Source of the DNA: Flavobacteriaceae bacterium
GTDB lineage: Bacteria; Bacteroidota; Bacteroidia; Flavobacteriales; Flavobacteriaceae
Assembly: GCA_028284005.1 (NCBI GenBank)
Contig: JANQSO010000001.1
Coordinates: forward strand, 62,001 to 126,000
Direction: 5' to 3'
DNA length: 64,000 nt
Every line of letters begins with the position of its first letter. The first letter of the stretch is position 1. Positions 32,413-50,910 of this stretch are shown piece by piece. The notes beneath the pieces were generated by a model. That model had not been told where the DNA came from and did not search any database. It worked only from the letters and a program-made list of their open reading frames with translations. The position numbers were made by a program, and so were the translations under genes.

Positions 32413-32449
32413 TGATGTATAATACATCAGTATATCCTAGTTGTGTGCA
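32411..32449 (+). repeat. site S0: array-start half-site
   Basis: Only the right half of the site family is recognisable (ATCAGTATATCCTA then GTTGTGTGCA at 32440-32449). The last ten bases are the exact reverse complement of TGCACACAAC at 35856-35865. It could be a degenerate attC or an attI-like entry point. Confidence 0.5.
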
Positions 32450-32477
32450 ATTATGAAAAACTAACAAACTTTAAAAA

Positions 32478-33707
32478 ATGAACGTAACAGATTTACTAAA
32501 AAAAGCAACAAAAAATATTACAATTATTGGAGTTTGTGGAATTTCAGACGAAATTGTCAAATTCTTGAATGAAAAAGATGAGCAATTATCTATCACAATT
32601 CTATGCGAATCTGATAACTACATTTTTAATAAAGCTATTCTTTCCGATAATAATCATTCACAGCAAAGAATATCATTCTCAGATTATAGATTTGAGCTTA
32701 ATAGAATCACGAGTGAGTTAGCTGATAAATATTCTAATGACGATAGTGTTGAAATCAAAATATCATATGTCGAAATACCTAAAAGAACTATAATTGTTGA
32801 CTCTCAATTCTACACAAGTGAATGGGTAATTGTGCCTGATACAGAATATAAGCTTGTGGATAAAAATTCTGAACTAGAATTAAGTATTAACAACTATGTC
32901 ACATTATTAAACGAAAAAGAAGTTGGACAAAAATTTTTAGCACCTTATAAAAACGAAAAAGGAAAAATTATTGAAACAATTGAACTTTTTGATGAAGATA
33001 GGATTAGACGTGGAGTTTTTCCAAGAAGTGCTTTTTATGATACAGACTTTATTAAACTTGTTGTTTGGGTTTATATTTTCGACAGAAAAGGACGACTATT
33101 AATTCACAAGCGAGCCGACAATGCAAAAGACAACAGAAGTATGTGGGACAAATCTGTTGGAGGACACGCTGATTACTTAAATGATATTGATACTTCTAAA
33201 ACTGTACCTAGAGAGGTAATAGAGGAATTAGTGACTGATGAAAATGTTGGTTCAACTTTTATTAAAACAAATGATGATGATGTTATATTTCTTGGAGAAT
33301 GGCGTCCTGATAAAAGAATATCAAATCCATTCAAAGAGATAGAAAATTATAAAAATAATTGGGTTTATTTTCGTATGCCTAAGTATGAACGAACATCTTC
33401 CCCAAGAATACTTCCTGATGGTACACAAAAAAATAATGAGGTTATTGCAGATACATATCTCTTTTTGTTATCTGATGATATAGATTCTGACAAAATCTCT
33501 GAGTTTAAAAATTCCAGTTACAAACTTCTTTATCCTAGAGAAGTTAAAAATGCAATAGAAAATAGTAAATCTGGAAAAGAAGATTTGAATTTTGATGGTC
33601 TCGAAGATTTAAAATTTTCACCCGACTTAAACTATACTTTTAATAGTAAGCTTCGTTATGAATTGGAACAATTCTCAAATTATATAAAGGCTTACTTTAA
33701 TGGGTAG
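32478..33707 (+). CDS. Nudix-domain protein heading a four-gene operon
   Basis: A 409-residue protein. Residues about 180-330 form a Nudix fold (FIKLVVWVYIFDRKGRLLIHKRA, then a Nudix box beginning GGHADY at about residue 228 and ending PREVIEELV). The box has the REVIEEL half but a non-standard first half. The first 170 residues are a separate alpha/beta domain (NITIIGVCGISDEIVKFLNE) with no family that I recognise. Nudix enzymes hydrolyse nucleoside diphosphate-linked compounds. The end overlaps the next gene by eight bases, so coupling with the three kinase-like genes is likely. Strongly AT-rich. Confidence 0.75.
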   Translation: MNVTDLLKKATKNITIIGVCGISDEIVKFLNEKDEQLSITILCESDNYIFNKAILSDNNHSQQRISFSDYRFELNRITSELADKYSNDDSVEIKISYVEIPKRTIIVDSQFYTSEWVIVPDTEYKLVDKNSELELSINNYVTLLNEKEVGQKFLAPYKNEKGKIIETIELFDEDRIRRGVFPRSAFYDTDFIKLVVWVYIFDRKGRLLIHKRADNAKDNRSMWDKSVGGHADYLNDIDTSKTVPREVIEELVTDENVGSTFIKTNDDDVIFLGEWRPDKRISNPFKEIENYKNNWVYFRMPKYERTSSPRILPDGTQKNNEVIADTYLFLLSDDIDSDKISEFKNSSYKLLYPREVKNAIENSKSGKEDLNFDGLEDLKFSPDLNYTFNSKLRYELEQFSNYIKAYFNG

Positions 33708-34305
33708 AATAATTACACTAACAGGTCCTTCTCAATCAGGCAAAAGCACAGCAAAAGATTTCTTCCTTAAACACAGTCATAAAGAGGGAGAAGAAGATGG
33801 ATGGTACTACCCTATATCGATTCCTAAATATAATACTAGAAAACCAAGAAAAGACGACAAGCCCGATGAAGTAATTAGTAGAAAGGTATTACCGAAAAAA
33901 TGCGATTTAGTATATCAACAATATGATGTTCGCTATGGTTTTTCATCAAAAGATTTATTAAAAAAATTACAAGAAGGTTTTATCTGTCTTATCGTAATCA
34001 ACGATGTCAGAACGATTAGTGAAGTGAAAAGAATTTTTGGTAAACTATGCAAGTCTATCTATCTACATCGACAAGCTATATCAAAAGCTGACTTCATTGC
34101 AGAAGCAAAAAAAAGAGGGAACAACGATGATAAAATGATTGAAAAGCGCATAAAGAAGGCAGAAGCTATTTATCGTATTTATATTGAAAATATAGACTTA
34201 TTTGATAATGTGCTTTTAAATTCTAGTAATGAAGAGAACTTAGAGGCACAAATAATTAAAGTTATTGAATCTCTTAACATTAAAAATCAACACTATTTCA
34301 AGTGA
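33700..34305 (+). CDS. guanylate-kinase-like P-loop protein 1
   Basis: A 201-residue protein with the layout of guanylate kinases: a Walker A GPSQSGKST at about residues 9-17, a YNTRKPR segment matching the GMP-binding TTRxPR loop near 45, and YGFSSK matching the YGTS-type loop near 85. The last third is a helical C-terminus. It overlaps the Nudix gene by eight bases. The Walker A is standard, unlike the two paralogues that follow. Substrate unknown; an unusual nucleotide or a non-nucleotide target is possible. Confidence 0.75.
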   Translation: MGRIITLTGPSQSGKSTAKDFFLKHSHKEGEEDGWYYPISIPKYNTRKPRKDDKPDEVISRKVLPKKCDLVYQQYDVRYGFSSKDLLKKLQEGFICLIVINDVRTISEVKRIFGKLCKSIYLHRQAISKADFIAEAKKRGNNDDKMIEKRIKKAEAIYRIYIENIDLFDNVLLNSSNEENLEAQIIKVIESLNIKNQHYFK

Positions 34306-34871
34306 AAAGCAAATCAAAAATAGTTATTGTGGTTGGAACGCCTGGTTCTGGTAAAGACATCTTAATACAAGCTGTTAATGATATGGGTTCTTTTCACGCT
34401 GTTATAGTACCTAAACACACATCAAGAAAAAGAGAAAGTGATGATGGGAATGAAATGATTTGCTGTGATGATAAAGATTACGATTTAAAAAATTGTGATA
34501 TCATTTATGACAATTATGGGACAAAATATGGAGTAAAGTCTAAAAAGTTGTGGGAAGGTGTGAAAAATGAAACTATACAAGTTGTAGTCATTAGTAATAT
34601 AAAAGCTATAAATCAAATTATTTCAATTTTTCAAAAAAATGTAATTGTTGTCTTCGTTCATTCAGATATGAATAAGGAAGAATATAGAAAAGAACAATTG
34701 GCTTTAGGTAAATCAGAAGAGTACATAAACAGTAGATTTGGAAAGTTTGAAAAGGCTTATGGAATTTATAGAGAAAACTTTAATCTTTTTAATCACGTTT
34801 TAATTTTCTCTAATTCACCAGAAGATTTATTTGACCAATTATTTAGATTATTTAATTATTATCAAAACTAA
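34302..34871 (+). CDS. guanylate-kinase-like P-loop protein 2
   Basis: The GTG at 34302 overlaps the previous stop (GTGA), giving 189 residues. The P-loop is GTPGSGKD: the Ser/Thr that normally binds magnesium is an Asp and no Thr follows it. HTSRKRE near residue 43 and YGTKYGV near 75 keep the guanylate-kinase pattern. This may be a kinase with altered metal use or a nucleotide-binding regulator. It is the second of three paralogues. Confidence 0.72.
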   Translation: MKSKSKIVIVVGTPGSGKDILIQAVNDMGSFHAVIVPKHTSRKRESDDGNEMICCDDKDYDLKNCDIIYDNYGTKYGVKSKKLWEGVKNETIQVVVISNIKAINQIISIFQKNVIVVFVHSDMNKEEYRKEQLALGKSEEYINSRFGKFEKAYGIYRENFNLFNHVLIFSNSPEDLFDQLFRLFNYYQN

Positions 34872-34873
34872 AA

Positions 34874-35854
34874 ATGGAAAAATTTCAAAACATAAAAAGG
34901 TTATTTGAAAAAATAAGAAGTTCACCAGAATTGACTGCTATTGCAGAAGATAAAAGGATACCAATTCTTTTAAATATTATGGAACCAACTTTTGGGCCAA
35001 TATTTGATTCTCTGGTTTTGGGAAACGTAAGAGACAAAAGTTTAGCGGACAAATTCCAAGCAATAGAAGAAAATCTTGAAAGCAATCTTTCCGAGGATGA
35101 TGGAATTCAACTTTTAGATATAATTGCTGATAATAGAGAAATTTTATTTACTTCGATTGCCAATGTAGAATCATTGATGGATGAACATAATGAACTAAAG
35201 AAATTAGTTTCTACTTATCTTGCAATTCCTAGTGACCAAGAAGAAACATTTATACCTTCGTCATCATTTAAATTTGTAGTAATAGCTGGTGCTTCGGGAA
35301 CTGGTAAAGATGTACAGTTAGAATTATTGCACAAACATCAATTTAAAAATTACAGGCACAACGATATACTCACCAAATTTTCAACTCGAAAACCGAGAAA
35401 TCAAGACTCAGATTATTATGAATTTATAAAAAAAGCTGAGTTTTTGAAAATGAAAGAGAATGGCGATATACTATTTCCATACGACAAGCGAAATTATTTT
35501 TACGGTTTTGATAAAGTCCAATTTGTGGATGAGGCGACTGGGAGCAATCTTTTATTTTCAATATTCACAGAATTTGAGATGGCACAAACGGCAAAAGCTT
35601 TCTTAACTGAATTAGGTATAAATAATCAATTTATTCTATTCAATGCATCAGAAAACGTGCTAAGGAGAAGAGCTTGGCATAGGAACTTTAGTGTTGCAGA
35701 AGTAAAGAGGAGAATAACATCAATTCAAAAAGATATTCAGTTTATTGAACAGAACAAAGCATCATTAGAATCAATATACGATTTTGTAGAGGTTGGAGAT
35801 GATAAGTCTATAAACGAAATTCATAAAACTCTAATTGAAATAATCGATAAATAA
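34874..35854 (+). CDS. guanylate-kinase-like P-loop protein 3 with N-terminal extension
   Basis: A 326-residue protein. About 130 helical residues precede a kinase domain with a GASGTGKD Walker A (Gly139-Asp146), FSTRKPR near 170 and a C-terminal helical half (VLRRRAWHRNFSVAEVKRRI) of the LID/CORE type. The last Walker A residue is again Asp. The gene begins three bases after the second kinase-like gene. The block ends two bases later in site S1, so all four genes form one large cassette. Confidence 0.75.
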   Translation: MEKFQNIKRLFEKIRSSPELTAIAEDKRIPILLNIMEPTFGPIFDSLVLGNVRDKSLADKFQAIEENLESNLSEDDGIQLLDIIADNREILFTSIANVESLMDEHNELKKLVSTYLAIPSDQEETFIPSSSFKFVVIAGASGTGKDVQLELLHKHQFKNYRHNDILTKFSTRKPRNQDSDYYEFIKKAEFLKMKENGDILFPYDKRNYFYGFDKVQFVDEATGSNLLFSIFTEFEMAQTAKAFLTELGINNQFILFNASENVLRRRAWHRNFSVAEVKRRITSIQKDIQFIEQNKASLESIYDFVEVGDDKSINEIHKTLIEIIDK

Positions 35855-35855
35855 C

Positions 35856-35990
35856 TGCACACAACAATGTGTATAAGTAATAGCGGTTTAAGTGATAAAA
35901 CGGAAGTATAAACATAAAACAAGGGTAAATAGTAATCTGTATAGTTAGTGTGTAGAAATTTACTACTACACATAGCTGGGATCTTTGTGA
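35856..35990 (+). repeat. site S1 (attC-like)
   Basis: Opens TGCACACAAC-AATGTGTATAAGTAAT one base after the stop codon; the first ten bases are complementary to the start of the same block at 32440. The right half (ACTACTACACATAGCTGGGATCTTTGTG) is divergent: the final GTTR is not exact. Confidence 0.6.
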
Positions 35991-36021
35991 AACATTAAAA
36001 CTCAAACTCACGAATTAAAGA

Positions 36022-37116
36022 ATGGACTTAAAAAAAACTCGAATTGAGGGGATGAAAATCTTCAAAGTAAGTCCTGAAGTTATGAATAGCGAAAGTGAGG
36101 AAACGAAAAATATTGTAAAACAGGCATTAAAAGAGAAACCTCTAAAAATTTGGGAAAGAGAATTAAAGCAACATAAATCAAATCTGTTTATGTCAAATGA
36201 AGAAGGTGATGTTTTTCAAGCAACTACCTTTGTTCATAAAAAGAAAATATTCGCTGGGATTGCTCCAAACTTGATTCAAGCATATTTTGATATGGCTTAT
36301 GAGCAAATTCAATGGACTAATAAATATGCTGATACATTCCATTACATTGCATCCGAAAAATTTGACCGAATAAAGTTTATTGACACGCCAATATTCAACA
36401 GATTCATTCAATATAGAATTAGCTCAATAATATTTTTACACTTATCAGTCGAGGCTTTTATAAATTATATCATTCCTGACAATTTTATCTACTGCAAAAC
36501 TGAAAAATCAAACTCGAATAAATTCCAAGAACAGATAACAAAACTCAATAAAGAAAATATTGAGCGTTGGGTTAGTTTCAAAGAAAAAATAGAAGAAGTA
36601 ATTCCGCAACTACCCAACAATGCCTTTGACATAAAAAAGAATAGTGATATAATTGGACGAATTCTTGAGATTGAAAACATACGGAATGAAATTATTCATT
36701 TAAAGAGCAAAGATTCAAATTCAAATATGCACTATGAAAAGGTGTTTAATTTTGTTGCATCTAAAGACTTAAGCAAATATTTATTTTCAGTAAAAAAGCT
36801 TATAAATATTTTACAAAAGGATTATATAAAAATTGATAAGATTCAAGAAGACAATAACACAAAAGAAATATATATTGAAAAGGCTGAACATCTTCACATT
36901 GGAGTATATTTTGAGGTCATTAAACAAAAAGAAAAACGAATTACAATTTTTATTGACAAATGGAGAGGACTTACTAAAGAAAGTGAGTATTTAAAGGTTG
37001 TATTATCTTATCTGAAATTAATGGAAGATATGAATTTGATAATGGACTATTTGATAAGTGAAGAAAAAAAGAAATTCAAAATAGAGATATTTAAGAATGA
37101 TGAACAAATAAAGTAA
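36022..37116 (+). CDS. HEPN-like protein of unknown function
   Basis: A 364-residue, predominantly helical protein. The middle contains ENIRNEIIHLKSK, with Arg221-(4)-His226, the RxxxxH signature of HEPN ribonucleases, preceded by a helix with SVEAFINYIIP. HEPN proteins cut RNA in toxin-antitoxin and phage-defence systems. The C-terminal 100 residues have a helix-strand pattern and no membrane segment. No antitoxin neighbour is in the same block. The assignment rests on one motif. It lies alone between sites S1 and S2. Confidence 0.5.
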   Translation: MDLKKTRIEGMKIFKVSPEVMNSESEETKNIVKQALKEKPLKIWERELKQHKSNLFMSNEEGDVFQATTFVHKKKIFAGIAPNLIQAYFDMAYEQIQWTNKYADTFHYIASEKFDRIKFIDTPIFNRFIQYRISSIIFLHLSVEAFINYIIPDNFIYCKTEKSNSNKFQEQITKLNKENIERWVSFKEKIEEVIPQLPNNAFDIKKNSDIIGRILEIENIRNEIIHLKSKDSNSNMHYEKVFNFVASKDLSKYLFSVKKLINILQKDYIKIDKIQEDNNTKEIYIEKAEHLHIGVYFEVIKQKEKRITIFIDKWRGLTKESEYLKVVLSYLKLMEDMNLIMDYLISEEKKKFKIEIFKNDEQIK

Positions 37117-37237
37117 CTACCTCAACAACGTGTATAAGTAATCAGCCCGACAGAGTTGTTCTGGCGGTTTTGGTTTGTATTTGCTAAATTAGTTATTGAA
37201 ACACGCAACGAAATTATATACTAGACCGTTATACTTA
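37117..37237 (+). repeat. site S2 (attC-like)
   Basis: Begins CTACCTCAACAACGTGTATAAGTAA, one base after the stop, then a central TTTGCTAAATTAGTTATTG, then GCAACGAAATTATATACTAGACC and GTTATACTTA (37228-37237). The last ten bases pair exactly with TAAGTATAAC at 37903. Confidence 0.75.
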
Positions 37238-37247
37238 ATTTACCAAA

Positions 37248-37526
37248 ATGCGAATAATCGAGATAAACGGAAATAAATTTTCAAATATGAAAGGTTTTTA
37301 TCGAGAAATAGAATCGAAAATGACCTTTGGGCTGAATTGGAAAATTGAACGGAATCTCAATGCATTTAATGATGTTTTTTATGGGGGATTTGGTGTTCAC
37401 GATGTTGACGAAAAATATATTTTAAAATGGCATCAAAGTGAAAAAAGTAAATATGAACTAAAATATTATGACCAAATAATTGAAATAATTAAAGAACACG
37501 AGAATATAGAATTACAATTGACATAA
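37248..37526 (+). CDS. orphan barstar-like protein
   Basis: A 92-residue protein with the barstar layout: an opening strand (IIEINGNKFSNMKGF), a helix (YREIESKMTFG), the NLNAFNDVFYGG loop in the place of NLDALWDCLTGW, a strand with ILKWHQSEKSK like LVLEWRQFEQSK, and a final ELQLT strand. Barstars inhibit barnase-type RNases. No barnase-like gene is next to it, so it may protect against an incoming toxin. It is followed with no gap by the gene at 37527. Confidence 0.7.
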   Translation: MRIIEINGNKFSNMKGFYREIESKMTFGLNWKIERNLNAFNDVFYGGFGVHDVDEKYILKWHQSEKSKYELKYYDQIIEIIKEHENIELQLT

Positions 37527-37898
37527 ATGCTCTTCTGGAAAATTGAAAATAGAATTGAACCCAAACGGGATTTTTACTCAAAAATTAAAGAGTATTACAT
37601 TGGAATTTCTGACAATCAGATTCCGACTGAATTACTTAATGAAATAATTTCAAAAGTAACAGACGAAATATATTGTAATTATAAACGATTTTGGAAGCAA
37701 TATCCAAAATCACGAAAAAGATATTCGACTTTAAAAATTGAGGATATTGAACATACTTTTATTCATTATTTGATAACTGACTTTTTTGAAAAAAGGAAAT
37801 TAGCAGAATCTCGGAATTTTTCAAAGATTCTGTTTAAAATGAATGACAAGGAATTTGACAAGTATTTAGATCAAAAAGATTGGTATGAAACGAAATAA
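37527..37898 (+). CDS. protein of unknown function, coupled to the barstar-like gene
   Basis: A 123-residue protein that begins right after the previous TAA. It is charged and rich in Lys, Glu and aromatic residues (FWKQYPKSRKRYSTLKIEDIEHTFIHYLITDFFEKRKL), probably a small helical bundle. I do not recognise a family. It shares the cassette with the barstar-like gene, so the two may act as a pair. Confidence 0.55.
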   Translation: MLFWKIENRIEPKRDFYSKIKEYYIGISDNQIPTELLNEIISKVTDEIYCNYKRFWKQYPKSRKRYSTLKIEDIEHTFIHYLITDFFEKRKLAESRNFSKILFKMNDKEFDKYLDQKDWYETK

Positions 37899-37902
37899 AA
37901 AC

Positions 37903-38038
37903 TAAGTATAACAATGGCCTTAAGTAACCAACCCTACAGAGCCGTTCTAGCGGGTTGCAGGATTCCTTTTAGTTCGTTTTCTTTTGCTAAATTAGTCCTA
38001 GTCAATGCTACTAACCATATACGAACATGTTGTGGTGC
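37903..38038 (+). repeat. site S3 (attC-like)
   Basis: Opens TAAGTATAAC-AATGGCCTTAAGTAACC, contains GTTTTCTTTTGCTAAATTAG and ends CTAACCATATACGAACAT-GTTGTGGTGC (38029-38038). The first ten bases complement the previous block start at 37228 exactly; the last ten complement GCACCACAAC at 38723 exactly. Confidence 0.82.
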
Positions 38039-38095
38039 ATTTTGACAAACCGCTCGAATAAAACAAATTTCTCTTTCAAATTCTAAAAAAATTAT

Positions 38096-38118
38096 TACTT
38101 TTGTATCTAAATGGATAC
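38096..38118 (+). promoter_or_regulatory. promoter and candidate operator of the toxin-antitoxin pair
   Basis: TACTTTTG at 38096-38103 fits the -7 consensus. It is followed by GTATC-TAAATG-GATAC, an inverted repeat of 5 bp overlapping the transcription start and eight bases upstream of the toxin ATG, a natural place for HigA-type autorepression. Confidence 0.5.
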
Positions 38119-38126
38119 ACTTTTAA

Positions 38127-38429
38127 ATGATTATTACCGAAAAAACATCTGAGTTTGATAAGTGGATTAGAAAGCTAAAAGATATTCGGGCAAAATCTAA
38201 AATTCTTTTCCGAATTCAGAAACTTGAAACGGATGAACATTTCGGAGATTGTAAACCTATAGGAGACGGAATAAGTGAAATGCGAATTAATTATGCTAAA
38301 GGCTACCGGGTATATTTTAAGGAAAAAGACAATAAAATTGTTATTCTTCTAATTGGTGGAGATAAATCAACTCAACAAAAAGATATCGAGAAAGCGAAGA
38401 AAATTTGGGACAGAATAAAAAATGATTGA
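38127..38429 (+). CDS. RelE/HigB-type toxin
   Basis: A 100-residue protein of the phage-derived Gp49/HigB (addiction-module killer) group: FDKWIRKLKDIRAKSKILFRIQKLE, then FGDCKPIGDGISEMRINYAKGYRVYF and IVILLIGGDKSTQQKDIEKAKKI, the conserved final segment. These toxins cut mRNA at the ribosome. The gene overlaps the antitoxin by eight bases and has the toxin-first order of HigBA modules. Confidence 0.88.
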   Translation: MIITEKTSEFDKWIRKLKDIRAKSKILFRIQKLETDEHFGDCKPIGDGISEMRINYAKGYRVYFKEKDNKIVILLIGGDKSTQQKDIEKAKKIWDRIKND

Positions 38430-38715
38430 TATGACAACAACAAAATTTGACATAGCAGACTATTTGGACAACGAAGAAATGATAGCTGAATATCTAAATA
38501 CTGTTCTCGAAGATGGAGACAGCTCTGATTTGATAATTGCAATCGGACATATAGCAAAATCTATCGGAATGACTAAAATTGCCGAAAAAACTGGAATGAG
38601 CAGAACAAGTCTTTATAAAGCATTATCCGACGGAGCAAAACCACAATTTGGAACAATAATAAAAGTGCTGAAAGCTATTGGCGGACAAATCAACGTGAAA
38701 CCAATGTCAGCATAA
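38422..38715 (+). CDS. HigA-type antitoxin (XRE-like)
   Basis: A 97-residue protein (ATG at 38422; another ATG three codons in). After DIADYLDNEEMIAEYLNTVLEDGD there is an XRE HTH (GMTKIAEKTGMSRTSLYKALSDGAKPQFGTIIKVLKAIG). This layout marks the antidote of HigBA-like addiction modules that neutralises the toxin and represses the operon, likely through the inverted repeat at 38103-38118. TA pairs are frequent cassettes that stabilise large arrays. Confidence 0.88.
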   Translation: MIDMTTTKFDIADYLDNEEMIAEYLNTVLEDGDSSDLIIAIGHIAKSIGMTKIAEKTGMSRTSLYKALSDGAKPQFGTIIKVLKAIGGQINVKPMSA

Positions 38716-38722
38716 AAAAACG

Positions 38723-38794
38723 GCACCACAACAATGGCAATAATTCATTACGGCTTTGTGCCATACCAAAATCATAGCCGGAACCGTTGGTAGT
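38723..38794 (+). repeat. site S4 (attC-like)
   Basis: A compact member, about 70 bp: GCACCACAAC-AATGGCAATAATTCATTACGGC, then ATCATAGCCGGAACC and GTTGGTAGT (38786-38794). GGC(A)ATAAT can pair with ATCATAGCC as an L-box-like stem. The first ten bases complement the start of its block at 38029 exactly. Confidence 0.8.
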
Positions 38795-38804
38795 ACAGAA
38801 AAGA

Positions 38805-39443
38805 ATGAATAGATCAGTTGACAATTATTTTATTGAAGGCTGTGGACGTTGCCCACTTGGAGGCACTCCTGGCTGTAAAGTTCATAATTGGACCTCAGAA
38901 TTAGAACTATTAAGAAAAATAGTTCTTGAATGCGGGTTGACAGAGGAATCTAAATGGGGTGCGCCCTGCTATACTTTTCAGAATAAAAATATACTTATGG
39001 TGAGCGCTTTAAAAGAATATTGCTGTATCAGCTTTTTTAAAGGTTCCTTGTTAAGTGATGATAAAGACCTTTTGGTGAAACCCGGACCGAATTCACAAGC
39101 AGCAAGGCTTTTTAAGTTTATAAATAGTAATGAAATAATAAAGATCGAAAGTGATATAAAAGCATACATCTTTGAATCTATTGAGGTAGAAAAAGCGGGT
39201 TTAAATGTCACATTTAAGAAGAACCCAGAACCCATTCCTGAGGAACTGGAAACGAAATTTGAAGAAGACCCTGTTTTGAAAAACGCTTTTGAGGCCTTAA
39301 CTCCCGGAAGGCAGAGAGGTTACATTCTTCATTTTTCTCAACCCAAACAAGCAAAGACAAGGGTCTCGAGGATTGAAAAGTGTATGCCTATGATCTTATC
39401 CGGGATAGGATTGCATGATAAGTACAGATCCATGAAAAAATAA
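38805..39443 (+). CDS. DUF1801/YdeI-family protein
   Basis: A 212-residue protein (ATG at 38805; the frame is open from 38787). The N-terminal half has DUF1801 features (LRKIVLECGLTEESKWGAPCYTFQNKNILMVSALKEYCCISFFKG) and the C-terminal part LTPGRQRGYILHFSQPKQAKTRVSRIEKCMPMIL is the YdeI/OmdA signature. Such proteins are stress-linked and common, but their activity is not known. The small cassette ends in site S5. Confidence 0.8.
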   Translation: MNRSVDNYFIEGCGRCPLGGTPGCKVHNWTSELELLRKIVLECGLTEESKWGAPCYTFQNKNILMVSALKEYCCISFFKGSLLSDDKDLLVKPGPNSQAARLFKFINSNEIIKIESDIKAYIFESIEVEKAGLNVTFKKNPEPIPEELETKFEEDPVLKNAFEALTPGRQRGYILHFSQPKQAKTRVSRIEKCMPMILSGIGLHDKYRSMKK

Positions 39444-39446
39444 ACT

Positions 39447-39520
39447 GCCGCCAACACTATATATAAAAAACACTCAAGATTTGTCTATCTTTGAGTTCTC
39501 CCTGCTTTTATAGTGTGGTA
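39447..39520 (+). repeat. site S5 (attC-like, divergent)
   Basis: GCCGCCAAC-ACTATATATAAAA pairs with TTTTATAGTGT in an inverted repeat. Inside is a second hairpin, ACTCAAGAT/ATCTTTGAGT (39471-39497). The first nine bases differ from the complement of its block start by three transitions, two of them G:T pairs. The right core is GTGTGGTA, not GTTR. Confidence 0.5.
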
Positions 39521-39577
39521 CATTTTACCAGAATGAACCGAAACCGAAAAACTAACTAAAACTGAATTAAAATTTTA

Positions 39578-40099
39578 ATGGATTTAGCAAGACACTGTGA
39601 TTTGTGCGACCATCAAAAGATTAGCTTAAAATTAGGAACGACTTGCGGATTAACTGATCGAAAACCTGAATTTAATAGAACTTGTGCGAAAATTGAACTT
39701 AACGAAAAGTTTGAACATAAGCTGAAGTCTGTCAATATAGAATACCAAAATATTAAACGAAAAAAAATATTGACCTACACTTACTTTGCTGTTTTTCTTG
39801 CTATTGGAATTGCTGTAATTGTAGGCGGTTATTTACTGGGAAAATATGCTTTAGATAGTGGAGTGATCTCAACTGTACCTATAATAATTATGGGTGTTGG
39901 ACTTGTGCCTCTCGGAATGGCATTTGGGACTTTAAATAAACACAGACAGGAAATTGAAGTCGCCAAAAGTAAAAAAGATAAAGTTGACGAAGTATTGAAT
40001 GAATACAGAATTGAATATGTTATTAACATTGTGTTTGGAAAAGAAATTCATGGAACTCAAGAAGTTTATGCTGAATTAAAAACTAAAGGAATTAGTTAA
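39578..40099 (+). CDS. small membrane protein with cysteine-rich N-terminus
   Basis: A 173-residue protein. The first 40 residues hold four Cys in the spacing C-x2-C-x13-C-x13-C (CDLCDH ... CGLTDRKPEFNRTC), possibly a zinc site. Two membrane helices follow (about 68-92 and 100-120), then a charged cytoplasmic tail with a coiled coil. No family recognised. Low-GC and AT-rich. It lies between sites S5 and S6. Confidence 0.6.
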   Translation: MDLARHCDLCDHQKISLKLGTTCGLTDRKPEFNRTCAKIELNEKFEHKLKSVNIEYQNIKRKKILTYTYFAVFLAIGIAVIVGGYLLGKYALDSGVISTVPIIIMGVGLVPLGMAFGTLNKHRQEIEVAKSKKDKVDEVLNEYRIEYVINIVFGKEIHGTQEVYAELKTKGIS

Positions 40100-40175: not shown

Positions 40176-40189
40176 ATTTTGATATAATT

Positions 40190-42556: not shown

Positions 42557-42564
42557 ACAATACA

Positions 42565-44371: not shown

Positions 44372-44385
44372 TAACTATAATCAAA

Positions 44386-44838
44386 TTGAACAAAAAAAAT
44401 AACTTATCGAATTATTACATCCTGAAAAGAGCTTTAGCCGGACTTTTGGATTATATATTATATTTCACTCTTTTTTATATTTCATGTGTCCTTTTTGGAG
44501 AAAAGCTACCTGGTGGAGGATTTACAGGGAACCATCTTTTCATTTTCTTTTTTGGTTTTTGGATTCTTTTAATGGTAGTTTCTGAAATGCTATTTGAAAG
44601 CACAATTGGAAATTTTTTGTTCGGATTAAAAGCTGTGAAGAAAAACGGAGAAAAAATGAATTTCTGGCAACCTTTGATTAGACATTGTGCCGACTTAATT
44701 GATATGTGGCCATTTGGTTTGGTTGGAATTCTGACAATTAAATTTACTAAAGACAATCAGCGTTTAGGAGATATGATAGCAGGAACAATAGTTGTTGAAA
44801 GGAATAAAGATGAAAAAGTTGCTTACAACAATATATAA
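44386..44838 (+). CDS. RDD-family membrane protein
   Basis: A 150-residue protein starting at TTG 44386. Three hydrophobic segments and the motif YILKRALAGLLDYILYFTLFYIS (RDD-type Arg ... Asp), plus LIRHCADLIDMWPFGLVG and DNQRLGDMIAGTIVVER near the end, mark the RDD family of small membrane proteins of unclear function (some are Na+/H+ exchange linked). The last codons lie in the opening arm of site S11. Confidence 0.85.
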   Translation: MNKKNNLSNYYILKRALAGLLDYILYFTLFYISCVLFGEKLPGGGFTGNHLFIFFFGFWILLMVVSEMLFESTIGNFLFGLKAVKKNGEKMNFWQPLIRHCADLIDMWPFGLVGILTIKFTKDNQRLGDMIAGTIVVERNKDEKVAYNNI

Positions 44839-44932
44839 CGCTCGTTACTGCTAAGTTTCCTATGGTTCATTTTCTTTTATTACTTTAGTTGCCGGCAAAC
44901 GTAACTACTTATAGCCGGGGCTGTTGTACATA
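44821..44932 (+). repeat. site S11 (attC-like)
   Basis: Opens GCTTACAAC-AATATATAACGC inside the end of the RDD gene, contains TTTTCTTTTATTACTTTAG and ends GTAACTACTTATAGCCGGGGCT-GTTGTACATA (44923-44932). No matching arm for the last ten bases was found at the next sites. Confidence 0.65.
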
Positions 44933-44947
44933 CTCAAAAATAAAAAC

Positions 44948-45913
44948 ATGAGAAAAGACCTTATTGTACTGTTAGTACTTCTTAGCTGTAATCTATCCTA
45001 TAGCCAGGGGACGGTAGAAGCCGAATTTGATACCATATATAATTATGCGTTTGACGCATTAAAGGGAACACATACTAAAAAGATAGTGATAGATGAATCG
45101 CATAATACGATCTACTCACTGTCCTATGGTAAACAGACCGCCCGTGAAATGCTGCGAATTATGGAGGAAGACGGTTTTACGGTTCAATTCACCGACCGGA
45201 AACTTGATTCTACCAACCTTGCAAAAGCCAATCCCGATCTGTTAATTCTCCACGGCATGCCCAACGACAAGATCGAATTGACGAATGCAGGCAAAAAGGA
45301 AGTTATGTATAAGTCTCCACTGCTCGATGAAGAAGTAATGGGCATCACAAAATATGTGTATAATGGAGGGAGCCTGTTCTTATTTTTAAGTCACTTTCCG
45401 GGAGGGAGCGGTGCGTTACCGCTTTTGGAAGCTTTTAGTATTAAGTTTAGAGACGGCTATGCGTATCATCCAAATTTCCCCGGGCACAATTGCGGCCAGT
45501 GCAGCCACTTTATAATGACAGAAAAGAATAAGATGATCAATACGGATCATCCTGTATTAGCTACCAGGCTTTCTGAAGAAACGCTTCCCGGTACTATAAA
45601 GTTCTTATGTGGTGCAGCTATATTCAGAAATCCGGAGGACAATATCCTTTCCTTTCCGAACAATACAATTAATTTCACACCAACTACAGATGGAAGCATA
45701 GATGTTGAAGAAGATTCAGATTCGTACGCGGGTATGATCGGGTTTAACTTTGGTGACGGAAGGGTAATTGTTTGCACGGATCAGGGTATCTTCAGAAGTT
45801 TGGACCTGCTTATTGACGGTGAGAAGATCCCGGTGACCATACATGATCCCGAATGTGATAATGCAGGCCTGTTTTTGAACTCCATTAGATGGTTATCCAA
45901 ATTGCAAAAATAA
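44948..45913 (+). CDS. exported protein with GATase/IFT52-like fold
   Basis: A 321-residue protein with a signal peptide (MRKDLIVLLVLLSCNLSYSQ, ATG at 44948). KIVIDESHNTIYSLSYGKQTAREMLRIMEEDGF, PDLLILHGMP and ITKYVYNGGSLFLFLSHFPGG suggest a Rossmann-type GATase/DUF4350/IFT52-like domain, used in Bacteroidota for sugar- or ligand-binding. NCGQCSHF holds a Cys pair. Function unknown. The next gene follows within 20 bases. Confidence 0.6.
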   Translation: MRKDLIVLLVLLSCNLSYSQGTVEAEFDTIYNYAFDALKGTHTKKIVIDESHNTIYSLSYGKQTAREMLRIMEEDGFTVQFTDRKLDSTNLAKANPDLLILHGMPNDKIELTNAGKKEVMYKSPLLDEEVMGITKYVYNGGSLFLFLSHFPGGSGALPLLEAFSIKFRDGYAYHPNFPGHNCGQCSHFIMTEKNKMINTDHPVLATRLSEETLPGTIKFLCGAAIFRNPEDNILSFPNNTINFTPTTDGSIDVEEDSDSYAGMIGFNFGDGRVIVCTDQGIFRSLDLLIDGEKIPVTIHDPECDNAGLFLNSIRWLSKLQK

Positions 45914-45933
45914 CACTCATAATAAAGTAAAAT

Positions 45934-46305
45934 ATGGCAAATTATATAGATGGATTCGTACTTCCCATTCCGAGAGATGGCCTGATCGAGTACAAACGTG
46001 CAGCCGAAGTGGTTGCAGAGATCTGGAAGGAACATGGCGCACTTGCGTACCATGAGTATGTTGGTGATGATCTAAAATTGGAAGGCACGCGTTCTTTTTC
46101 TGAACTTGTAGATGCAGAAAAGGACGAAGCCATTGTATTTGGATGGGTTGTATTCGATTCGCGTGAGGCTCGTGACCTGGCTAATAAGAAGGTCGCAGCC
46201 GACCCAAGAATGGCAGGCTTAATTGATCCACTGACGGACCCTTCAAGGATGATTTTTGATGCCAAACGAATGTTTTATGGTGGATTCCAACAGCTTGTCC
46301 AATAA
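45934..46305 (+). CDS. DUF1428-family protein
   Basis: A 123-residue protein that closely fits the DUF1428 (YbaA-like) family: YIDGFVLPIPRDGLIEYKRAAEVVAEIWKEHGALAYHEYVGDD, VFGWVVFDSREARDLANKKV and MPD-like ending FDAKRMFYGGFQQLV. This is a dimeric alpha/beta-barrel of unknown role. Its base composition is less AT-rich than the surrounding array, which may mean a separate origin. No attC-like site follows. Confidence 0.88.
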   Translation: MANYIDGFVLPIPRDGLIEYKRAAEVVAEIWKEHGALAYHEYVGDDLKLEGTRSFSELVDAEKDEAIVFGWVVFDSREARDLANKKVAADPRMAGLIDPLTDPSRMIFDAKRMFYGGFQQLVQ

Positions 46306-46364
46306 ATAAATTTTCCTGCAATTGCCTTTAATCCCAACTGAGTGTATAGGTTTTATGAGGCATT

Positions 46365-46508
46365 ACTGAAGTTTTAAATGTAATGAAGCTGCTTGTTTCT
46401 ACTAAATAGATCAAATGCTTTATTGGTACTGTGTAAAAAATAATTACTTTCGGCATCGAAATAAAAGTTTAGTAAAGAAAATTCTTAGCAAGCCTATTTA
46501 GTGCAAAA
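46365..46508 (+). repeat. array leader repeat, copy B (decayed xre 3' end plus downstream)
   Basis: A fragment of an xre C-terminus (TEVLNVMKLLVSTK-stop, stop at 46407-46409) is followed by GATCAAATGCTTTATTGGTACT, TAATTACTTTC, AAAAGTTTAGTAAAG and TATTTAGTG, in the same order as copy A at 32271-32412. No ATG or HTH remains here, so it is a relic. It suggests that a leader segment was duplicated or that the array was inserted into it. Confidence 0.7.
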
Positions 46509-46515
46509 TCTTAAA

Positions 46516-47118
46516 ATGAAATTTAACTATAGTACATACGTGTTATTCATATTGGTTTTAATAAGTTGCCAAAAGCAAGAAACAGAAATTAGGAATTATG
46601 GTTTTTCTAAAAAGGAAAATTCGAATCTAAATGTATCTGTTAAATTATTGGAATTTGAAAACTATGGAATGCTGATGGACCGAATTCGAGAAATTACTTG
46701 TAATGATAGTATTCCAAAAATCGCTATTGTAGAAAAAGACCTCAAGCGGAATATGTATCCAATTTCACATTGCGAACCAATGATCTTTGACCCGGATGAA
46801 AAACACTATGTTTCTTTTCATAAAGGTAAATTTTATAAAGATGACTTAGGTAAAGAAATTGGTACAGACTCTTTAAGTTGGATTTTAAAAAACGACTTTG
46901 AAGATTTTAAGGTAATTGACAAATCTGACGCTATTAAAAGCTATTTTATCATCATTCAATCTAATAGAAATGAAAAAGTTGACGGAATTGGAGAATTCTT
47001 AACCGACTTAACTCAAGAATTTGATAAATTAAAAACTGAATTGGAATTGAATATATCATTTTGGGAGATTGTGCCATATATACCACCAGAAATAAAAAAT
47101 GAAATACAAACTGAATAA
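46516..47118 (+). CDS. lipoprotein of unknown function
   Basis: A 200-residue protein (ATG at 46516, five codons inside the open frame) with a lipoprotein signal (YSTYVLFILVLISC). The body is charged (NSNLNVSVKLLEFENYGMLMDRIREITC) with two Cys, mostly helical, and no known family. It is followed by site S12. Confidence 0.6.
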   Translation: MKFNYSTYVLFILVLISCQKQETEIRNYGFSKKENSNLNVSVKLLEFENYGMLMDRIREITCNDSIPKIAIVEKDLKRNMYPISHCEPMIFDPDEKHYVSFHKGKFYKDDLGKEIGTDSLSWILKNDFEDFKVIDKSDAIKSYFIIIQSNRNEKVDGIGEFLTDLTQEFDKLKTELELNISFWEIVPYIPPEIKNEIQTE

Positions 47119-47122
47119 AAAT

Positions 47123-47233
47123 AATGGTTAACAATGTGATAGTTCATTATTTCTGAATTTCTCCTGACATGCTTTCTTTTACTATTTCGGTTTCTAACCA
47201 TTATAACTATTCATTACCGAACCGTTAGCCACA
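47123..47233 (+). repeat. site S12 (attC-like)
   Basis: AATGGTTAAC-AATGTGATAGTTCATTATT, TTCTCCTGACATGCTTTC and TTTCTAACCATTATAACTATTCATTACCGAACC-GTTAGCCAC (47225-47233). Its centre is nearly identical to that of S13. Confidence 0.65.
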
Positions 47234-47312
47234 AGATCGGCTTCAGTAATTTCTATACAAATATTGGTAAAATGTATACATCTAAAAAATAGGTGGTTAC
47301 TAATTTTACCAC

Positions 47313-47726
47313 ATGAAAATTATATCAAAACTTTATATGGCCCTATTGCTCTTTGGAGCGATAGTCATGCTAATTTGGGGTCTGGCCGGTTTCTTTGAAT
47401 ACTTCACAGGAATTACCCTTCTTATTGAACTACAGAACGCTGCTTACCCGGGGAGTGTGCAGTTTGTACATTGGTTGCTAATAACATTGACCGGGACATT
47501 TTTTTCCATAGGTTATTTTACAAAGTGGAAATGGACGCCATTTGTCGCAGTCTTGTTATTTTCTAACCTTGCTGTTTTATGCACTATTGAGACCTTTGAC
47601 TTTATGTCGGATCAATGGGGTTTTACACCTTATGTAATGGAGATGTTGTCTTATGTTGTGCATTCAGTATTTCTTTTGTTGTCACCTTTGTCCAGATCAC
47701 GTTTTAAACATTTTCAATACGTATGA
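47313..47726 (+). CDS. four-helix membrane protein
   Basis: A 137-residue protein with four hydrophobic helices (about 10-30, 48-68, 76-92, 105-125). The ORF overlaps the next by four bases (ATGA), so it belongs to the five-gene unit ending at 50789. I do not recognise a family. Confidence 0.6.
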   Translation: MKIISKLYMALLLFGAIVMLIWGLAGFFEYFTGITLLIELQNAAYPGSVQFVHWLLITLTGTFFSIGYFTKWKWTPFVAVLLFSNLAVLCTIETFDFMSDQWGFTPYVMEMLSYVVHSVFLLLSPLSRSRFKHFQYV

Positions 47727-48379
47727 AAAGAGTACTTATAGCCGGAGCATCAGGAATGACAGGCAGCTTGATATTGGAGAGATGTTTGTCTTCATCAGAG
47801 GTTTACGAAGTTATTTCGTTAGCGAGAAAACGATCTTCTCAAACGCATCCAAAACTAAAAGAGGTCATAGTTTCCGACTTCAGGAATTACGAAGAAATTG
47901 GTAGCATGTTTGAGAATATCGATGCTGCCTTTTTTTGCATTGGTGTTTATACCGGGCAAGTTCCTGCCTCTAAATTCAAAGAGATTACAGTGGATTATGC
48001 AGTAAGTTTTGCTCAGGCTTTAAAGAAGAAAAGTCCGAATGCCAAATTATGCTTATTAAGCGGAGCCGGAGCTGACAGAACGGAAAAAAGCCGGGCAGCT
48101 TTTGCAAGATATAAAGGGATTGCTGAAAACAGAATCTCTGAACTGGGCTTAGAGTTCTATGCGTTTAGGCCTGGTTATATTTATCCGGTATCGCCACGGA
48201 AAGAACCTAATATCATGTATAAGATCTTACGAATAGCGTATCCGTTAATGAAACTCATGGGCCCGGATAGTAGCATTAGATCAACAGAGCTGGCACAAGG
48301 GATGTTTAATGTTGGATTAGAAGGTGCAGAGCTTGAAATTCTTGAGAATAAGGATATTTTGAACTATACATCCCATTAG
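47723..48379 (+). CDS. NAD(P)-binding epimerase-like protein
   Basis: A 218-residue Rossmann protein: MKRVLIAGASGMTGSLILERCL at the start, FRNYEEIGSMFENIDAAFFCIGVYTG and LCLLSGAGADRTEKSR, then YAFRPGYIYPV. It belongs to the atypical SDR/HTATIP2-like family that binds NAD(P)H without the full catalytic triad. Starts within the previous gene's end (overlap 47723-47726). Confidence 0.82.
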   Translation: MKRVLIAGASGMTGSLILERCLSSSEVYEVISLARKRSSQTHPKLKEVIVSDFRNYEEIGSMFENIDAAFFCIGVYTGQVPASKFKEITVDYAVSFAQALKKKSPNAKLCLLSGAGADRTEKSRAAFARYKGIAENRISELGLEFYAFRPGYIYPVSPRKEPNIMYKILRIAYPLMKLMGPDSSIRSTELAQGMFNVGLEGAELEILENKDILNYTSH

Positions 48380-48413
48380 GTGTTGGCCCTGTTAATTACT
48401 AAAAAAACAAACA

Positions 48414-48905
48414 ATGAATAACAAGATCAATGAAAATGTGGAGGTGGAAAAAATCAAAGCCTCACATAGAGCAATTTACACAGATATTGAAATTAATGCT
48501 ACGGCAGAACAGGTTTGGTCCGTTTTGACCGACACGGAATCGTATAAGGATTGGGCTACTTTTTTAGTGGATATTCAGGGAGAGATCAAAGATGGTAATA
48601 AGATCACTGTGGTCTTTCAGATCAACCCGGAGAAAGAAAAGCGCACGACGATCGACCATACCATTTCCGTAGTTGAAGGAACAGTATTTTACTGGGCAGA
48701 AAAAGGGCCCGGAGGCATTACGGATAATCATCACTTCAAAGTTGAACCTTTAAGTAACGGCAAAACCCGATTTATTCAATCTGATGAATTGAAGGGTGGC
48801 TTGACCTGGCTAATGGGCGGAAATTTATCAAAAATGTATGGTAAAGGCTATCAGGCCTTTAATCGTAAGCTGAAAACAGAGGTAGAGCAAAGATTTAAAC
48901 AATAA
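48414..48905 (+). CDS. SRPBCC/polyketide-cyclase-like protein
   Basis: A 163-residue protein with the START-like pattern IYTDIEINATAEQVWSVLTDTESYKDWATFLVDIQGEI and HHFKVEPLSNGKTRFIQSDELKGGL. SRPBCC proteins form a pocket for hydrophobic ligands. It lies between two oxidoreductases, so it may handle the same lipid-like metabolite. Confidence 0.8.
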   Translation: MNNKINENVEVEKIKASHRAIYTDIEINATAEQVWSVLTDTESYKDWATFLVDIQGEIKDGNKITVVFQINPEKEKRTTIDHTISVVEGTVFYWAEKGPGGITDNHHFKVEPLSNGKTRFIQSDELKGGLTWLMGGNLSKMYGKGYQAFNRKLKTEVEQRFKQ

Positions 48906-48926
48906 CGAATTAAAGATCTAAGTACG

Positions 48927-49832
48927 ATGAACTTCAATTTAAAGGATATTCCTTCTCAAAAAGGGCGCATAGCAATTGTAACAGGAGCAAATAACGGTAT
49001 TGGTTTTGAAACCGCTTTGGCAATGGCCGGCTATGGATTTAAAGTGGTTATGGCGTGTCGGAATTTAGAAAAGGCCCAAAAGGCCAAATCGGATATTTTG
49101 CAAAAAGCACCTCATGCAGATCTGGATATTATTCAGTTGGACTTGAGTGATCTGGACAGCGTTAGGACATTTGCCAAAAATTTCAAGGACAACTATACGA
49201 AACTGGATGTACTCATCAACAATGCAGGTGTATTGGTCTATTCGGGAAAAAAGAACAAAGCTGGAACAGAATTGCAATTTGCCACGAATCATTTGGGTCA
49301 TTTTCTGCTAACCAATTTACTGTTTGAATTGATCCCGGATACTTCTGTCTCCCGAATTGTAGCTCTAAGTAGTTTGGCACATTTAGAAGCAAAAATTCAT
49401 TTTGATGATATAAATTGTGAAAGAACAGACGACAAAGATGCTGCTTACGGGCAGTCAAAACTAGCCAATCTATTTTTTGCCAATGAATTGGATCGCCGTT
49501 TAAAAAAAGCGAATAAAAAAATAGTTGCACTGGCTGTGCATCCTGGTGGTTCAGATTCAGGACTTTTTGATGAAATGTCCAGAGTGAAATATTATACCTT
49601 TAAGATCTTATCGCCATTTATTCTTAACTCTAATGTTTCTGCTGCCAAGCCTTCCCTTTTTGCCGCATTAAGCCCGGAGGTAAAAGGAGGTGAATATTTT
49701 GGGCCACAAGGTTTTAGAGAGTTCAAAGGAAAGGTAGGAGTGGCCAAACGCAGTAAATATTCGGAAAGCGAAGGTGTTGCGACAAGACTTTGGGAACTGT
49801 CAGAAGAAATGACAGGTCAGTTATTTTTATAG
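48927..49832 (+). CDS. short-chain dehydrogenase (retinol dehydrogenase-like)
   Basis: A 301-residue SDR: IAIVTGANNGIGFETALAMAGYGFKVVMACRN (NAD(P) site), DVLINNAGVLV, the ATNHLGHFLLTNLL helix, active-site Ser in VALSSLAH and YGQSKLANLF (Tyr-x3-Lys). The long C-terminal loop is like that of eukaryotic-type retinol dehydrogenase/protochlorophyllide-reductase relatives. Part of the 47313-50789 unit. Confidence 0.88.
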   Translation: MNFNLKDIPSQKGRIAIVTGANNGIGFETALAMAGYGFKVVMACRNLEKAQKAKSDILQKAPHADLDIIQLDLSDLDSVRTFAKNFKDNYTKLDVLINNAGVLVYSGKKNKAGTELQFATNHLGHFLLTNLLFELIPDTSVSRIVALSSLAHLEAKIHFDDINCERTDDKDAAYGQSKLANLFFANELDRRLKKANKKIVALAVHPGGSDSGLFDEMSRVKYYTFKILSPFILNSNVSAAKPSLFAALSPEVKGGEYFGPQGFREFKGKVGVAKRSKYSESEGVATRLWELSEEMTGQLFL

Positions 49833-49853
49833 TGAATACCGTAAAAAATTAGT

Positions 49854-50789
49854 ATGTTTATTCCTAACAACTTTAAACCAATGAATGACATAGTTCATAT
49901 TGAAAGCATTTCAGATATGCATGATGTTTTTGGGTTGCCAAAACCCAGGCATCCATTGGTTTCCATAATTCGGTTTAAGAATACTCAAATTCAACCCGAA
50001 TATCATCATGTTCGCTGTTCTTTTGGGATGTACGGTATTGCGCATAAAAACGAAACGAAAGGCAGTATGAAATACGGACGTAATTCGTATGATTTTCAGG
50101 AAGGTTCCATGTTGTTCATAAAACCCGGTCAAGTGCTTAGTTATGACGGCCATCAATCTTCAGCAGAAGATCCGGGCTGGATTCTATTATTTCATCCTGA
50201 TCTTATTAGAAAATCTGAATTAGGTATGGCAATTGATGAGTATTCGTTTTTCTCATATGATATAACCGAAGCCTTACATATTTCCGAAGAGGAAAAACTT
50301 TCACTTTATGAAATTCTTACCAAAATAGAAAATGAATACCATCAAAACATTGATCGTCATAGTCAGAAGCTAATTGTTTCAAATATTGAATTACTACTGA
50401 ATTACTGTACTCGATACTATGACAGGCAGTTTTACACACGAAGTAATTTAAATAAAGATGTTTTGGTGAAATTTGAACATCTTTTGAAAGACTATTACAA
50501 TAACGATGATCAATATCAAAACGGAGTTCCCACTGTATCTTATTGTGGCAACGCGTTAAACATGTCTTCTAAATATTTAAGTGATCTATTAAAAAGAGAA
50601 ACAGGAAAAAACGCCAAAGCTCATATAGATGATTTCTTAATGAATAAGGCAAAATCTCATTTATTGAGTACTACTGCGCCAATTAGCGAAATAGCATATG
50701 GCCTGGGGTTTGAATATTCTCAACATTTTTCTAAGTTGTTCAAGGCCAAATCAGGTATGACCCCCAGCGAATATAGGAGTTTGAACTGA
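49854..50789 (+). CDS. AraC-family transcription regulator
   Basis: A 311-residue protein with a cupin-like sensor half (FGMYGIAHKNETKGSMKYGRNSYDFQEGSMLFIKPGQVLSYDG) and an AraC HTH half at about 210-311 (YLSDLLKRETGKNAKAHIDDFLMNKAKSHLLSTT, IAYGLGFEYSQHFSKLFKAKSGMTPSEYRSL). It probably controls the four genes in front of it, especially the two dehydrogenases. It ends two bases before the S13 region. Confidence 0.9.
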   Translation: MFIPNNFKPMNDIVHIESISDMHDVFGLPKPRHPLVSIIRFKNTQIQPEYHHVRCSFGMYGIAHKNETKGSMKYGRNSYDFQEGSMLFIKPGQVLSYDGHQSSAEDPGWILLFHPDLIRKSELGMAIDEYSFFSYDITEALHISEEEKLSLYEILTKIENEYHQNIDRHSQKLIVSNIELLLNYCTRYYDRQFYTRSNLNKDVLVKFEHLLKDYYNNDDQYQNGVPTVSYCGNALNMSSKYLSDLLKRETGKNAKAHIDDFLMNKAKSHLLSTTAPISEIAYGLGFEYSQHFSKLFKAKSGMTPSEYRSLN

Positions 50790-50800
50790 GCATAAAAGCC

Positions 50801-50910
50801 TGTGTCTTACAAAGTATATAGCTCATTGTTTCTGAATTTCTCCTGACTCGTTTTCTTTCACTAATTTAGGTCTGTCCAATGCAACTACCATACACCTAAT
50901 ATTGGTGGTC
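50801..50910 (+). repeat. site S13 (attC-like)
   Basis: TCTTAC-AAAGTATATAGCTCATTG, TTTCTGAATTTCTCCTGAC, TCGTTTTCTTTCACTAATTTAGG and CAATGCAACTACCATACACCTAATATTGGTGG. It matches S12 in its left and central part and S3/S10 in its right part. The final GTT is replaced by ATTGG, and the first AAC by TAC. Confidence 0.55.

Follow-up and report, generated by a model that had tools for sequence, protein, structure and literature searches.

The window analysed here is a stretch of 64,000 nucleotides (G000:C7:62001-126000) from the 3.13 Mb genome of a Flavobacteriaceae bacterium, in which positions 32404-50905 form an integron-type gene cassette array without an integrase (Table 1). The gaps between rightward genes hold left half-sites of the form AAC-N6-TATAAGTAA (13 of them, 35863-50808) and right ends of the form CATA-N9-GTT (nine, 32440-47224). 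Both halves are present in eight sites (S2, S3, S4, S6, S9, S10, S11 and S12), with 56-146 bp from AAC to GTT; in S1, S5, S7, S8 and S13 the right half is degraded or undefined. The cargo, as assigned by Pfam, includes NUDIX, guanylate-kinase-like and Barstar-family proteins, a toxin-antitoxin pair, two DUF1801 proteins, and GNAT, amidohydrolase, RDD, DUF1428, SDR and AraC-family members. The 92-aa protein of cassette 3 matches Barstar at 1.8e-7, and the pair in cassette 4 consists of a Gp49/HigB-like protein of 100 aa and a helix-turn-helix (HTH) antidote of 97 aa. Several cassette proteins belong to no Pfam family; that of cassette 2 is present in two of 60 genomes, this one included. An Rfam scan of the window returned two tRNAs only and no attC-like family.

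Do these units carry the mark of movement? A unit that was once a circle closed at G|TT should have a right end, R'' (..AAC), that pairs with its own start, R' (GTT..), and not with the GTT of the same site. Three window cassettes begin with 10 nt that are perfectly reverse-complementary to their final 10 nt, and a fourth agrees at 9/10. Over nine window cassettes 54 of the 81 letters beyond GTT match the cassette's own other end, compared with a mean of 29.7 and a maximum of 52 in 20,000 shuffles, a count that is optimistic since cassette ends were chosen by eye and partly with knowledge of the matches. Pairing within one window site reaches just 2-5/9. A covariance model trained on the eight complete window sites was then used to place ends; 42 different consecutive site pairs (44 less two duplicates) match at 161 of 252 positions, against a shuffled mean of 82.8 and maximum of 119 (10,000 shuffles), and 11 pairs match perfectly where shuffling gives a mean of 0.84. 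We consider it very probable that this is a genuine array of mobile gene cassettes.

Table 1. Array head, cassettes and sites in the window; E values and bit scores are from the covariance model, protein families from Pfam.
Feature	Position	Strand	Description
attI-like site S0, array head	32404..32442	+	Imperfect palindrome ATAATGATGTATAATACATCAGTATAT, then GTT
Cassette 1	32440..35865	+	Start GTTGTGTGCA, end TGCACACAAC; ends match 10/10 nt
S1	35863..35995	+	Left half clear, AACAATGTGTATAAGTAA; right half degraded; 13.8 bits, E 1.3
Cassette 2 gene	36022..37116	+	364 aa, no Pfam match
attC-like site S2	37124..37230	+	E 9.4e-7; training site
Cassette 3	37228..37912	+	GTTATACTTA ... TAAGTATAAC, ends match 10/10 nt; Barstar-family 92 aa and 123-aa protein
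attC-like site S3	37910..38031	+	Training site; as a match only 13.4 bits
Cassette 4	38029..38732	+	GTTGTGGTGC ... GCACCACAAC, ends match 10/10 nt; toxin-antitoxin pair
attC-like site S4	38730..38788	+	E 2e-7; training site
Cassette 5	38786..39455	+	DUF1801/OmdA protein, 218 aa; ends match 4/9
S5, degraded	39453..39530	+	By eye; folding z -1.96
Cassette 6 gene	39578..40099	+	173 aa, no Pfam match
attC-like site S6	40110..40168	+	E 9.9e-10; training site
Cassette 7	40166..40712	+	173-aa protein; GTTAGGTGTT ... AACACCTAGC, ends match 9/10, 7/7 beyond GTT
S7, left half only	40710..40800	+	By eye
Cassette 8 gene	40801..41184	+	127 aa, no Pfam match
S8, left half only	41196..41222	+	By eye
Cassette 9 gene	41223..41804	+	193 aa, no Pfam match
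attC-like site S9, longest (146 bp)	41815..41963	+	Training site; not recovered by the model search
Cassette 10	41961..42460	+	DUF1801 protein, 144 aa; ends match 4/9
attC-like site S10, right end GTC	42458..42552	+	E 9e-6; training site
Cassette 11, possibly fused	42550..44829	+	GNAT acetyltransferase, amidohydrolase, RDD protein; ends match 5/9
attC-like site S11	44827..44925	+	E 3.3e-6; training site
Segment 12	44923..47132	+	321-aa protein, DUF1428 protein, 200-aa protein; ends match 4/9
attC-like site S12	47130..47226	+	E 1.5e-6; training site
Segment 13	47224..50810	+	137-aa protein, NAD-binding, polyketide-cyclase, SDR and AraC-family genes; ends match 7/9
S13, degraded; recognisable array ends here	50808..50905	+	By eye

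The model recovers six of its eight training sites at E <= 1e-5, all on the + strand, and S1 and S3 reach 13-14 bits. In the window search S9, S5, S7, S8 and S13 were unmatched; S5, S7, S8 and S13 are therefore read by eye. A first-pass annotation of this DNA had proposed co-oriented cassettes set apart by a single family of sites with no integrase in the window, and the sites, the end pairing and the model search all bear it out. It had also held that the idea would fall if the sites had no homologues around unrelated genes elsewhere. Such homologues exist: with 54 candidates scored per genome, the model matches at E <= 0.1 in at least 29 of 99 genomes, the source genome included, and at E <= 1 yields 134 sites in 62 sources. 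Outside the window, the source genome has a single site at C8:425544 (E 0.004) and fainter matches at E 0.9-9, and it holds a second array at C7:273000-290000.

In relatives the arrays stand behind a tyrosine recombinase of about 376 aa, here termed clade A. The gene is found in 66 of 397 family genomes (E <= 8.5e-113), a few copies being broken or cut. Where the holder of a close copy is named, it is Maribacter, Psychroserpens burtonensis, Winogradskyella, Lacinutrix algicola, Formosa or Algibacter lectus, and because these belong to the Flavobacteriaceae we take the 397-genome family to be that one. In a phylum sample three of 296 genomes have the gene, each of them a member of this same family. 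Full-length members share at least 52% identity and the next full-length group reaches at most 46%. Relatives of window genes occur beside such sites in other genera. A homologue of cassette 5 (52%) lies behind a clade A integrase in L124 and is followed by a site of the window type, a homologue of cassette 6 (41%) sits, as a cassette whose two ends match, within the clade A array L107, and homologues of the AraC gene of segment 13 in L123 and L068 each precede a site of the window type. A relative of cassette 5 (49%) is also present in L195, a locus with a canonical IntI.

The clade A stop codon is followed by a palindrome, a few bases and GTT, an arrangement that constitutes attI. A strict rule, which asks for a palindrome and GTT no more than 190 nt past the stop, is satisfied by 41 of 57 clade A loci and by 28 of about 3000 random segments; a harsher first rule, since replaced, gave 29/57. 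At least one site at E <= 1 is present in 26 of 30 clade A stretches compared with five of 10 behind more distant recombinases, and the matching end of the first cassette is found in 17/24 clade A loci against 32/552 trials with other loci. Sites lie on the recombinase strand in 83 cases out of 83, a tally that comprises 40 loci (30 with clade A and 10 with more distant recombinases) plus L051 and L069. Outside it, L066 has its sites on the same strand and L062 on the opposite one.

Where would a cassette enter? GTT is the known crossover of integrons. The two integrase copies in one Psychroserpens burtonensis genome are alike at 85/85 nt from stop to GTT and at 17/60 over the next 60 nt. Comparison of three Winogradskyella platforms gives 83/85, 84/85 and 84/85 to GTT, then 18-20/60, and three more distant platform pairs give 74/85, 74/85 and 78/88, then 19-23/60, making seven pairs overall. 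As far as sequence comparison can tell, this break at GTT is the crossover of cassette insertion. The loci have an attI that adjoins the integrase and receives cassettes, with S0 as its homologue in the window, and the cassette genes are unrelated, co-oriented and varying, since first cassettes differ between platforms whose genes are 96-98% identical. We regard it as highly probable that the region is a cassette array of integron type that lacks its integrase and that the clade A enzyme of relatives is the matching recombinase.

A different tyrosine recombinase, either a distant 'clade B' enzyme or Xer, might move the cassettes with clade A as a passenger. More distant recombinases do stand beside arrays in L132, L133, L134, L139 and L062, and the source genome has arrays yet no clade A gene. 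Set against this are an attI right behind the clade A stop in 41/57 loci, first-cassette ends that match, and platforms that break at GTT, and we judge the passenger role unlikely, although more than one recombinase may act on such sites. The recombinases of L132, L133, L134, L139 and L062 show 37-44% identity to clade A. L130-L133 have a motif near ATCGTTATC behind the stop codon instead of a palindrome. The recombinase gene at L066:1500-2492 has an in-frame stop and lies just upstream of a rich array.

The residues R, K, H, R, H and Y are invariant in 15 clade A sequences, and we take them to fill their usual roles in tyrosine recombinases. Alignment with IntI1 shows that the IntI-specific block of about 40 aa, which holds the I2 helix, is absent. 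The IntI profile TIGR02249 matches P0001 and P0002 in two pieces, at 210.6 and 207 bits and below its cut-off of 265; the first piece stops at model position 179 and in P0003 the second begins at 239. Likewise, residues 182-241 of VchIntIA (2a3v) are without counterpart in P0001. By profile, structure-sequence and alignment comparison, then, clade A is not an IntI-family integrase with an I2 helix. The nearest named profile classes are XerA_Arch (218-231 bits) and TIGR02249 (207-211 bits). A quick tree, which leaves out L157, L134 and L172, places canonical IntIs in one clade (99) and clade A in another (97); support is from the Shimodaira-Hasegawa-like approximate likelihood ratio test (SH-aLRT) only, long branches are flagged and the tree does not settle how the two are related.

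At its N terminus clade A also carries an additional domain of about 90 aa. Predicted alone, it reaches a predicted local distance difference test score (pLDDT) of 80. Foldseek gave no match for the domain at E <= 0.001, and Pfam nothing in two of three proteins and a sub-threshold Deltex match in P0003. Structure comparison (VIA) aligned the domain with XPB (Z 6.6) and SMARCAL1 HARP (Z 4.2), values in the range that unrelated folds also score, such that the weak resemblance of the predicted model to fork-recognition domains is only a hint. An AlphaFold2 model of the whole integrase, based on 15 close sequences, was discarded (pLDDT 57, predicted template modelling score 0.36). IMG/VR contains eight relatives of the recombinase at 25-48% identity, none spanning the N-terminal domain; those on viral contigs L183-L186 are 45-48% identical to clade A over the catalytic part. 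An IMG/VR search with one cassette protein found no relatives.

The sites themselves have the R''-L''-L'-R' structure of attC. The spacers are 6/3, the same as in canonical Bacteroidota sites, the L stem covaries (149 double-changed cells against 41.7, standard deviation 4.8, in shuffled alignments and at most 29 in slid controls) and an R stem forms in the predicted circle form of 21 of 22 cassettes. A conserved mismatch bounds that R stem: past the 10 paired bases the start mostly continues with AT, and ACT or ACG precedes the end. For the stem survey 33 of the 134 sites were dropped (AAC or GTT misplaced, too short, or duplicates), leaving 101, of which 38 have a short outer stem or none. 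Among the 63 sites whose stem reaches 9 bp or more, the L stem has no bulged base in 47 and one in 16. The paired extrahelical bases typical of integrons were seen in none of these 63, whereas canonical Bacteroidota attC sites have two bulged L-stem bases in 6/6 folded (seven examined, three similar loci). With no I2 block in the enzyme and no second bulge in the sites, the partners of the I2 contact are missing on both sides.

It is very unlikely that these sites are served in trans by a canonical IntI and that clade A is unrelated to capture. Donors exist, as a canonical IntI scores above the family cut-off in 105 of 395 phylum-sample genomes. Other families of the GTDB phylum thus often have a canonical IntI, and the sample may include Chlorobi-type members. 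At E <= 1e-70, however, none of the 397 family genomes has a canonical IntI; the controls were also matchless there, and the same query did match in the phylum sample. The window-site model finds one weak match in 13 canonical-integron loci, and the count of sites with two bulged bases, 0/63, points the same way.

Several units are flanked by their own 10-nt inverted repeat, which would also suit small transposon-like elements with short terminal inverted repeats and a transposase in trans. The repeats match within a unit yet differ between units, and a common R/L geometry, covarying stems and a single orientation behind attI make such elements a still poorer account of the array. Least credible of all are terminators or repetitive extragenic palindromic (REP)-like repeats with no recombination role, an idea that fits palindromes at gene 3' ends and weak array-form folding in the window, but such repeats would pair inside one site, where agreement is 2-5/9, and the pairing instead spans the gene to the start of the unit.

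Returning to an integron array served by clade A, several points weigh against it. The first-pass annotation had named the lack of a common R/L hairpin as grounds for abandoning its proposal, and for the window sites in array form that lack is real: ten of them (S9 left out) fold like shuffles (z -1.96 to +1.36). It does not extend to most sites in the predicted form of the excised circle, for which the mean z is -5.4 compared with -3.4 for the array form (22 cassettes). The poor array-form folding is put down largely to the hairpin belonging to the excised circle, and we infer that insertion of a fresh circle would be favoured over excision. These 22 cassettes were selected for matching ends, so that the formation of R stems comes as no surprise; of the window cassettes, the two that can be folded as circles reach only z -1.5 and -3.0, and the alignment used for covariation was fitted to the model. 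End pairing is weak (4-5/9) in cassettes 5, 10, 11 and 12. Sixteen of the 57 clade A loci fail the strict attI rule, 14 of which show an imperfect palindrome before GTT by eye and two (L103 and L089) none. Non-clade-A recombinases adjoin arrays not only in L132-L134 and L139 but in L066 and, in opposite orientation, L062. Finally, the recombinase remnant of the source genome, at 50 aa, is too short to be placed among recombinases.

The search used for the 397-genome family found no clade A gene in the source genome, which has three full-length recombinases of Xer type and one remnant, the 3' 50 codons of a related recombinase gene at C7:287273 on the minus strand, with 57-62% identity to L062, L066, L051 and L069. 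It belongs to the second array (L019, C7:273000-290000, minus strand, about 14420-9777), whose attI lies behind this 5'-truncated recombinase. The remnant follows an open reading frame that we take to be coaD; on the strand of the remnant come next attI, a cassette bounded by GTTAGCTGCC...GGCAGCTAAC, and more sites. The cargo, by reading, includes a serine-hydrolase-like and a permease-like protein. S0 in the window is homologous to the L019 sequence between the remnant and the first cassette, and shares place and form with the attI behind clade A integrases. A second head-region relic lies inside segment 12, near 46375-46560 (82% over 67 nt). Given that the window head is homologous to the L019 attI region and to a relic, the window array is most simply seen as one whose integrase was lost; it would once have had an upstream integrase or been fed in trans. 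Because only the 50-codon remnant is present, with no clade A gene, the cassette system looks inert in the present genome.

Other features of the window can be noted briefly. Cassette 1 (32478-35854) contains four genes, one NUDIX and three different guanylate-kinase-like (Pfam), a combination that matches no recognised system. The 82% repeat joins 32281-32347 and 46375-46441, the 3' end of an HTH gene with the attI-side region being present twice, as if two array heads had been joined. Segment 13 is one long cassette, several fused cassettes or partly non-cassette DNA. At 31500-31686 there is a tandem repeat of two copies about 105 nt apart, adjoining two tRNA genes (30937-31147).

The mechanism we propose is as follows. 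Each unit consists of one gene, or a few genes in an operon, with an attC-like site behind it. In the excised circle the R'' end (YAAC) would pair with the cassette's own first ten bases (GTTR...) to give a bottom-strand hairpin in which an unpaired 6/3-nt spacer separates the R stem from the L stem and a variable loop closes the end, like a classical attC. Clade A, presumably acting on this folded single strand without an I2 helix, would splice the circle at G|TT into the attI that lies behind the clade A gene, and each insertion would shift older cassettes downstream.

How does this compare with published systems? The open literature, a coverage that leaves most subscription journals and preprints outside, yielded no description of such a flavobacterial integrase and array. 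Escudero et al. (PMC7790495) state that cassette capture requires I2 and that no other protein has it, and the integrase step of IntegronFinder requires an IntI-specific domain profile (PMC9668308). Integrons are reported for Bacteroidota as a phylum in PMC8618304 and PMC9668308; IntegronFinder 2.0 (PMC9024848) names one complete integron in Bacteroidetes proper, that of Salinibacter ruber M1. In our strict inverted-repeat scan attC-like sites were seen in five of 12 canonical loci, three of which (L194, L195 and L202) have repeated sites upstream of intI.

The flavobacterial system is, on the sequence comparisons above, one that behaves like an integron yet fails the defining domain feature of IntI. 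We think it probable, with less assurance than for the array itself, that the Flavobacteriaceae hold an integron lineage with an I2-less integrase, whose attC hairpins lack paired extrahelical bases. Such a lineage would be either a survivor from before I2 or an independent invention, and its N-terminal domain perhaps reads the folded site. If an integron does work without I2, the origin of integrons becomes testable, and one may ask whether I2 is needed for single-strand recombination or whether the hairpin can be read by other means that also prevent a lethal second exchange. A further implication is that cassettes are exchanged within a large family of bacteria where searches for the IntI domain would miss them.

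Integrons share with this system an integrase gene adjoining attI, tandem cassettes on the same strand, attC sites with R and L boxes, 6/3 spacers and a variable loop, and conservation that stops at GTT. They differ in the integrase, clade A being without the IntI block of about 40 aa, having the N-terminal domain of about 90 aa and standing outside the IntI clade; in attI, which here is a palindrome behind the stop codon of a co-directional gene; and in the sites, none of which has two bulged L-stem bases. The canonical R pairing is GTTRRRY, 7 nt, and the flavobacterial one 10 nt. Inverted (co-directional) integrons, such as that of Treponema, carry canonical IntIs. Their integrase and cassettes point one way, as here, and 'inverted IntIs' are named in PMC8352920. 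The integron-like subgroup of simple tyrosine recombinases (PMC8138268, 2021) is alike in the profile classes nearest to clade A, XerA_Arch and TIGR02249; the passages on this subgroup call the insertion essential for integron function and describe no arrays of members lacking it. The window array resembles CALIN (clusters of attC lacking integrases) in that six of its sites, found with its own model, lie less than 4 kb apart and no integrase is present in the window. Unlike CALIN, it has kept an attI-like site at its head.

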